NCBI GenBank assembly: GCA_019695295.1
Contig: JAIBAH010000020.1
Span: 1 to 49,933 of the forward strand
From: Bacteroidia bacterium
Lineage (GTDB): Bacteria > Bacteroidota > Bacteroidia > J057
Reading direction: 5' to 3'
DNA: 49,933 nt
Positions 38,912 to 41,065 of this stretch are shown here, piece by piece. Both the position numbers and the translations under genes were made by a program. Each line of letters opens with the position of its first letter. Positions within the stretch are counted from its first letter, which is position 1. Under the pieces are notes generated by a model. That model saw nothing but the letters and a program-made list of their open reading frames with translations, did no database searches and was not told the origin of the DNA.

Positions 38912-39982
38912 ATGAAAAATAAAATACTGTTAATAAGTATATTCTTGATGGGTACAGCAACCGCTGTGTTTGCGCAACCTAATCGTATCGGGCAGTCAGG
39001 GGCTTCTGAATTACTGATGAATACCACTGCAAAAAGTAGCGGATTTAATGGAATCAATATTGGTAGTTCGGATGGAATTGAAAGCGCATCCGTAAACCCT
39101 GCCGGAGTGGCTACAACGATGGGAACTGAACTGGTTTTTGCTCATACCCGTTGGTTAATCGGTACAGGAATCTCTGTGAACTCTATCGGTTTATCTCAGG
39201 CTTTGGGAGAAGAAGGTTCTGGCGGAGTGATTGGAATTAATGTAAACTCTCTTAGTTTAGGAAAATTTTATCGTACCACCACCAATCAGCCGGATGGAAA
39301 TATCGGTACATTTTCTCCTTCTTTTGCCAATATTGGTGTAACATACGCAAAGAAGTTTACAGACCATATTTATGTGGGTGCTACTTTAAGAATGATTAGT
39401 CAGGCGACTCCGGATGTTTCTGCTTTTGGGGCTTGTTTTGATGCCGGAGTTCAGTACCGGGCTTTGGAAAATGACGCACTGAAACTCGGTATCACCCTCA
39501 GAAACGTAGGGCCTGCAATGAAATACTCCGGACAGGGACTGGAAAACCGTGCTCCCCTTCAGCTTACCAATCCCTATAATAACGCAGTGGCTATTCCTAC
39601 TGATAAGTTTGAGTTACCTTCTCTGCTTACAATGGGAGGATCATATGATATTCACGCAGGAGAAAACAATACAATTTCTCTTCTCGGAGGATTTATTTCC
39701 AACGCTTTTTACTACAATCAGCTAGGAGCAGGTGTGCAGTATCAGTTTAAAAATATTGTTGCTTTACGTGCAAGTTATTTATATGAAAAAGGAATTACCG
39801 GAGAGTTGGGTGTGGACAGATATTCTGCCTATACCGGACTTGCAGGAGGAGCTACCTTTCAGGTCCCTTTCAAGGCTTCCAAGAAAAGCGACCGTAACTC
39901 ATTGTTTGGGCTGGATTTAAGCTACCGTACTTCAAATCCTTTTGGGGGTACGCTTTCTTTTGGCGCAAGAGTAGATTTATAA
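38912..39982 (+). CDS. PorV/PorQ-family outer-membrane protein
   Basis: A 356-residue protein with signal peptide 1-21. The FadL-like barrel family of PorV/PorQ is suggested by GASELLMNTTAKSSGFNGINIGSSDGIESASVNPAGVA near 31-68, by YAKKFTDHIYVGATLRMI near 147, and by the barrel end GGTLSFGARVDL. PorV carries T9SS cargo from the translocon to the attachment complex and PorQ works in the same system. This copy could be a dedicated paralogue for its upstream neighbour, but that is inference. Confidence 0.75.
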   Translation: MKNKILLISIFLMGTATAVFAQPNRIGQSGASELLMNTTAKSSGFNGINIGSSDGIESASVNPAGVATTMGTELVFAHTRWLIGTGISVNSIGLSQALGEEGSGGVIGINVNSLSLGKFYRTTTNQPDGNIGTFSPSFANIGVTYAKKFTDHIYVGATLRMISQATPDVSAFGACFDAGVQYRALENDALKLGITLRNVGPAMKYSGQGLENRAPLQLTNPYNNAVAIPTDKFELPSLLTMGGSYDIHAGENNTISLLGGFISNAFYYNQLGAGVQYQFKNIVALRASYLYEKGITGELGVDRYSAYTGLAGGATFQVPFKASKKSDRNSLFGLDLSYRTSNPFGGTLSFGARVDL

Positions 39983-39990
39983 GATTTTCC

Positions 39991-40021
39991 TTGACATTTC
40001 AGAAAAATCGTTGTATATTTG
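39991..40021 (+). promoter_or_regulatory. greA promoter
   Basis: TTG at 39991-39993, a 20-bp spacer, then TATATTTG at 40014-40021: a consensus Bacteroidota promoter. Transcription should start near 40027, giving a leader of about 165 nt before the greA ATG. Confidence 0.8.
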
Positions 40022-40026
40022 CATCA

Positions 40027-40072
40027 TAATTTAAAAAAGTAAGGATTGGTAAGTGCCAATCCTGCTTTTTTT
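40027..40072 (+). ncRNA. Candidate short leader RNA of greA (GraL-like arrangement)
   Basis: Only about 15 nt after the expected start, AGGATTGG (40042-40049) pairs with CCAATCCT (40056-40063) around a 6-nt loop, followed by GC and seven T. This is a strong intrinsic terminator. It would release an RNA of about 45 nt from the greA promoter. E. coli greA also has a leader terminator producing small GraL RNAs of about this size (from memory). The sequence itself is not expected to be similar. Existence of the RNA is inferred. Confidence 0.55.
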
Positions 40073-40112
40073 AGTTTTAAAGGTTAGTTTTTACATTCAC
40101 AAAAATATTTTA

Positions 40113-40134
40113 AAAGACGCATGATTGCGTCTTT
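40113..40134 (+). terminator. Second hairpin in the greA leader
   Basis: AAAGACGCA (40113-40121), a TGAT loop and TGCGTCTTT (40126-40134): a 9-bp perfect stem followed by ATTATTTG. It lies 58 bp before the greA ATG and could be a second attenuation point. Confidence 0.55.
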
Positions 40135-40672: not shown

Positions 40673-41065
40673 ATGCCCACGATTTTTTCCAGAATTGTAA
40701 ACGGCGAAATTCCCTGCTATAAAATTGCAGAGGATGACCGCTATTTTGCTTTTCTCGATATTAGTCCCCTTAAGAAAGGTCATACCCTCGTAATTCCGAA
40801 AGCCGAAGTGGATTATCTCTTTGATATGGATGAGGAAAGTTATTCGGGGTTGTTCCTTTTTGCAAGGAAGGTGGCTGCCGCTATACAGAAGGCGATACCC
40901 TGTACGAAAGTAGGGGTTGCAGTGATTGGGCTGGAAGTACCGCATTGTCATATTCATCTTGTGCCTTTGCATAATGTTTCGGACCTGAACTTCAGTAATG
41001 CCAAACTCATGCTGGATAAAACAGAAATGGAAGCAATCGCTGAAAAAATAAAGGCCTCGTTTTAA
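40673..41065 (+). CDS. HIT-family nucleotide hydrolase/transferase
   Basis: A 130-residue protein. IFSRIVNGEIPCYKIAEDD near the start and the histidine triad HCHIHLVP near 99 identify the HIT family (Hint-like, nucleoside phosphoramidate or dinucleoside polyphosphate hydrolases). Cytosolic. Probably co-transcribed with greA and closed by the 41112-41147 terminator. Confidence 0.92.
   Translation: MPTIFSRIVNGEIPCYKIAEDDRYFAFLDISPLKKGHTLVIPKAEVDYLFDMDEESYSGLFLFARKVAAAIQKAIPCTKVGVAVIGLEVPHCHIHLVPLHNVSDLNFSNAKLMLDKTEMEAIAEKIKASF

Follow-up and report, generated by a model that had tools for sequence, protein, structure and literature searches.

The secondary channel of RNA polymerase is contested between GreA and other proteins, so the amount of GreA matters; what is known of its regulation is partial and comes mainly from Escherichia coli. 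GraL and the greA leader of E. coli were reportedly described by Potrykus in 2010. The terminator in this leader yields GraL (Dylewski 2019, PMC6829880), through which E. coli GreA turns down expression of greA in cis, an effect that needs the catalytic residue D41 but not the promoter. The effect of GreA on the leader was seen in vivo only and requires an unknown factor (PMC6829880). Attenuators of greA and rnk have further been predicted in Proteobacteria, Bacilli, and Clostridia (Naville & Gautheret 2010, PMC2965389), in a study that leaves Bacteroidota unmentioned.

Within Bacteroidota, 64 structured 5′ regions are catalogued in a transcriptome study of Flavobacterium psychrophilum, which uses a TAnnTTTG box (PMC9723704). 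No discussion of greA was found in its main text, and its supplementary lists may hold a greA entry; nor was any found in the main texts of two B. thetaiotaomicron transcriptome papers. In the main texts of the literature, supplementary tables aside, we found no report of greA leader attenuation in Bacteroidota. The candidate attenuator described here would be new for this phylum, greA attenuators as such being already reported in others.

We analyzed the greA locus of the window, a 49,933-nucleotide stretch of DNA from a Bacteroidia bacterium; all features given below lie on the + strand. The only greA of the genome (40193-40663, 156 aa) belongs to the GreA family TIGR01462/NF001263 and retains the catalytic-loop residues D41 and E44 (GDLSENAEY). 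A HIT-domain (HinT-like) gene follows immediately (40673-41065) and is probably co-transcribed with it, so the leader may meter both genes. Of 214 Bacteroidia loci, 190 have the HIT gene as the next gene 3′ of greA, and the same test did not find this adjacency in 20 sampled loci from other classes. On the 5′ side, a PorV/PorQ-family gene (38912-39982) has its stop codon 8 nt before the greA promoter; between 34901 and 39982, a 1309-aa protein with a weak match to a T9SS sorting tail precedes the PorV/PorQ-family protein. From the PorV-like gene to greA, the order of elements is promoter, 16 A-rich nt, hairpin 1, T7 tract, hairpin 2, and start codon.

The earlier note, made from the sequence of the window, had claimed a consensus promoter followed by an early terminator with an 8-bp stem and T7 tract, and then by a second 9-bp hairpin. 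Its coordinates and its description prove correct, apart from a small refinement of the stem. The promoter (39991-40021) is an exact match to the Bacteroidota sigma-A type, with TTG (-33) at 39991-39993, N20, and TATATTTG (-7) at 40014-40021, and it also matches the sigma-70 consensus in 11 of 12 positions at 39991-40019. A homologous promoter (TTGACTTTTGAAAAAAAAGGTTGTATATTTG) is kept in the closest relative, L002. Since the TAnnTTTG box was mapped to -12 to -5 in F. psychrophilum (PMC9723704), the greA start is predicted at A40026, 16 nt before the stem of hairpin 1. Across the phylum comparison described below, an exact -7 box lies 45-200 nt 5′ of the start codon in 142/217 leaders. Among 13 sampled members of the GTDB family of the window, the fuller -33/-7 pattern occurs in only 4, and an exact -7 box was not seen near the hairpin in 7.

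The 16-nt, A-rich lead-in is unstructured and runs into hairpin 1 (40042-40063), which is identified by its folding energy and by covariation in the family. Both the early position and the T7 tract were as claimed; the stem, given as 8 bp, has 8 Watson-Crick pairs plus one G-U wobble, closed by a 4-nt loop (-11.9 kcal/mol, or -18.2 kcal/mol when pairing of the flanking A-tract and T-tract is included). The T7 tract (40066-40072) follows a GC spacer and is the predicted release site, based on its sequence and on the T-tract profile across leaders. Counting from the predicted start to the last T of this tract gives a putative promoter-proximal, GraL-like RNA of about 45-47 nt (40026-40072). The second hairpin (40113-40134; 9 bp, -11.5 kcal/mol) is terminator-like with a weaker T-tract in its tail (ATTATTTG). 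It is real and lineage-specific, as a second T-tract hairpin is found in 8/13 members of the family; within the genus, counterparts occur in L002 and L003. In L002 both hairpins are kept, with hairpin 1 weaker (-8.6) and hairpin 2 stronger. In the family of the window, as noted from leaders L012, L011, L008, L249, and L250, a second T-tract hairpin accompanies mostly long leaders and no short ones.

Taken alone, one AT-rich sequence is weak evidence, and the comparison across genomes decides. Promoter and terminator scans of the single sequence were set aside as near chance in this AT-rich region, the terminator scan giving 4 terminator-like sites compared to 3.9 in shuffles. When the intergenic region was shuffled 300 times, no shuffle reached -18.2 kcal/mol, and stems of -12 kcal/mol appeared in 2% of the shuffles. 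A repeat element was rejected as an explanation, since the exact hairpin sequence occurs only once in the genome, and neither the window nor any of 15 relatives gave an Rfam match at the gathering score. We conclude that the hairpin exceeds chance because its stem covaries and because it is nearly universal 5′ of greA and not of the neighboring genes.

To follow the stem among relatives, we aligned 12 greA leaders from the GTDB family of the window over hairpin 1. The arms align as GGGTTGGC...GCCAACCC in the family and as GGATTGG...CCAATCC in the window. RNAalifold, run unguided, returned a 13-bp helix with 94% of cells paired, and 8 of its 13 pairs show compensatory changes on both sides. No shuffle out of 500 was as good, and controls with slid partners scored far lower. 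Stem covariation in related greA leaders was the check that the earlier note had proposed, and a stem that relatives did not share was to count against its reading; the stem is conserved.

We then collected greA leaders from relatives, named genomes, 60 stretches no longer than 20 kb each, and further families, and searched them with an energy-based hairpin detector that includes bulged and long-loop stems missed by an ungapped-stem search. Leaders with a T-tract after a hairpin folding at -8 kcal/mol or lower were called positive. By this measure, 199 of 217 distinct greA leaders from the class Bacteroidia are positive, as are 56-58 of the 60 GTDB families in that class (58 by automatic calling and 56 after correction, since two calls fall inside the upstream porV-like gene) and 10/11 families from other classes. 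Stem sequences vary by lineage (GAGUCCC...GGGAUUCUUU, AACGG...CCGUU, and GCAAGACUAU...AUAGUCUUGU), so what is conserved is the layout. The GAGUCCC...GGGAUUCUUU stem recurs in many lineages, with one inner pair being G-U, A-U, or G-C; this recurrence might point to a bound protein or simply to repeated selection of a strong stem. In most exceptions, greA sits right behind the porV-like gene or the hairpin lies farther upstream. The leader is absent, with greA directly behind the porV-like gene, at L005, L019, L021, L023, L226, and L228, which are natural losses and a useful contrast. The hairpin is also absent from several metagenome-assembled genomes (five) labeled Bacteroidales.

The genes neighboring greA within the 20-kb stretches served as controls, their starts being those of the open reading frames. 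At loci whose upstream gene is divergent and thus leaves no transcript to be ended there, the hairpin is present at 16/17 greA genes versus 20/143 control genes (p 2.7e-11); where it is co-directional, the counts are 21/21 versus 83/245. Requiring the hairpin within 25 nt of the -7 box gives 11/17 greA versus 4/143 control genes in the divergent class and 17/21 versus 20/245 in the co-directional class. The combination of an exact TAnnTTTG box and a hairpin is found at 18/38 greA genes and at 1/388 controls (p 2.6e-20). The greA-type arrangement was not found in three GreA/Rnk-like paralogues, a count that leaves out one paralogue whose start codon was not located.

Hairpins chosen by energy alone 3′ of an exact -7 box reach -8 kcal/mol in 133/140 cases, with a median of -18 kcal/mol. 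After the stem of these energy-chosen hairpins, T makes up 69-77% at positions +1 to +5 and about 30% beyond +8, where the sequence is A-rich. At least 5 T among the 8 nt after the stem are found for 75% of greA hairpins compared to 17% of hairpins in control leaders. The 3′ ends of convergent genes served poorly as a positive control for the T-tract, because stems picked by energy take up A/T tracts and a terminator may be missing at many of these ends. Because the T-rich tail stops sharply after about 8 nt and is rare in control leaders, the greA leader hairpin is, judged by its sequence, of the terminator type and not a generic stem.

The space 5′ of the stem is small. Over 120 leaders, the RNA preceding the stem has a median length of 2 nt (10 nt or less in 78%), and the RNA predicted to be released is 44 nt long at the median. 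The RNA preceding the 3′ arm has almost no structure (0.0 kcal/mol for the window), and neither an alternative fold nor a short open reading frame was found 5′ of the terminator stem in the window or in the 120 leaders. About half of the predicted starts lie no more than about 2 nt from the stem, a distance that accommodates neither an antiterminator nor a leader peptide or aptamer. As there is almost no RNA before the stem, release or read-through would therefore be set by the strength of the terminator and by factors bound to the polymerase. Our main reading, to which we give a probability of roughly 0.6, is that the greA leader is a promoter-proximal attenuator that yields an RNA of about 45 nt and at which read-through is decided at the polymerase, plausibly by GreA.

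Several other explanations for the hairpin can be weighed against these data. Masking of translation was rejected, as the stem ends a median of 31 nt before the ATG and is too far off. A co-directional PorV-like gene ends just 5′ of greA in the window, as at roughly half of the Bacteroidia loci, with nothing else intervening before the hairpin and greA, and the hairpin could accordingly be just the 3′ terminator of this PorV/PorQ-like gene, preceded by the greA promoter by coincidence. As a general explanation this is ruled out by the divergent loci, for example Flavobacteriaceae-like loci and Spirosoma, which keep the hairpin in nearly all cases against 14% of control genes. The usual order of stop codon, terminator, and promoter is moreover inverted here; the greA promoter lies 5′ of the hairpin, and transcription of greA must therefore pass through it. 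We consider the coincidence improbable for the window as well, where hairpin 1 probably also ends transcripts of the PorV/PorQ-family gene and dual use, as the end of that gene and as the greA leader, is likely.

A stem at the extreme 5′ end of the message, outside the ribosome-binding region by the same distances, would equally suit an ompA-type stem-loop that shields greA mRNA from RNases and is no terminator. A stabilizer of this kind requires no T-tract, yet the T enrichment spans five positions after the stem and ends abruptly after about 8, and such tails are rare after the hairpins of control leaders; we find this explanation unlikely. It is less easy to set aside a constitutive terminator that merely fixes a low basal level of greA, with neither feedback nor signal, since a leader without space for an antiterminator or sensor could be read through at a fixed fraction. 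This we regard as doubtful: conservation in 56-58 of 60 families despite turnover of the sequence would be puzzling were a weaker promoter able to serve equally well, and in E. coli the early greA terminator is indeed under the control of GreA (PMC6829880).

Under the attenuator reading, RNA polymerase would initiate near 40026, transcribe about 16 nt, and reach the conserved intrinsic terminator, where a fraction of the complexes would free the 45-47-nt RNA and the remaining complexes would pass the second, weaker hairpin into greA-hinT. GreA, acting through transcript cleavage on the complex paused at the U-tract, would favor release and close a negative loop on greA-hinT, as E. coli GreA does with GraL. 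We hold the components of this model with different confidence. Actual termination at the leader hairpin is likely, and a regulatory role for the leader is somewhat favored. Control of the leader by GreA, argued from analogy, is a reasonable possibility that falls short of an expectation. The layout suggests that most greA messages may end after about 45 bases, with the frequency of read-through by the polymerase possibly setting GreA output, as in E. coli GraL. Still more tentatively, the leader could be a sensor-free attenuator in which GreA itself is the signal, acting on polymerase that has paused at a U-tract whose terminator is formed by the first nucleotides of the GreA message itself, with a layout that spans the phylum, a sequence that was repeatedly replaced, and a parallel in GraL.

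If GreA itself is the signal, promoter-proximal termination would be a general bacterial way to meter GreA. The minimal RNA before the stem would exclude antiterminators, peptides, and ligands and leave the polymerase and its factors, making the Bacteroidota leaders natural minimal versions for the study of GreA feedback in vitro. Under this model, laboratory Bacteroidota that already have dRNA-seq data should produce a short 5′ RNA.

Compared to described systems, the leaders share with the F. psychrophilum structured 5′ regions a Bacteroidota host and the TAnnTTTG box (PMC9723704). With the attenuators of Naville and Gautheret, they share a terminator-like hairpin between promoter and greA that recurs in many species. 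Those attenuators have an antiterminator in each case (PMC2965389), whereas the Bacteroidota leaders have none and no space for one; that study also predicted attenuators for rnk, while the Rnk/GreB-like paralogues checked here lack the arrangement.

GraL is the closest parallel, and its terminator in E. coli K-12 was recovered by the same hairpin detector. Both systems place an intrinsic terminator some 16-19 nt after the greA start and have a predicted RNA of 40-60 nt, a position in cis in the greA leader, and a GreA with its catalytic residues. The earlier note had likened the window to GraL on the strength of a promoter, a short lead-in, an early terminator, and a predicted RNA of about 45 nt, a layout that holds up and is conserved across Bacteroidota. 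The Bacteroidota leaders differ in their sigma-A promoter, in pre-stem RNA that is often 0-5 nt, in having greA co-linear with a HIT gene, and in being known by sequence alone; the family of the window differs further in its tandem second hairpin (8/13 members). Because the hairpin sequences are unrelated to GraL in a comparison by eye, yet attenuators are predicted in Proteobacteria, Bacilli, and Clostridia, the layout may have arisen repeatedly or may be old with turnover of its sequence. For the same lack of sequence relationship, we describe the leader of the window as one that would work like GraL and not as a member of the GraL family.
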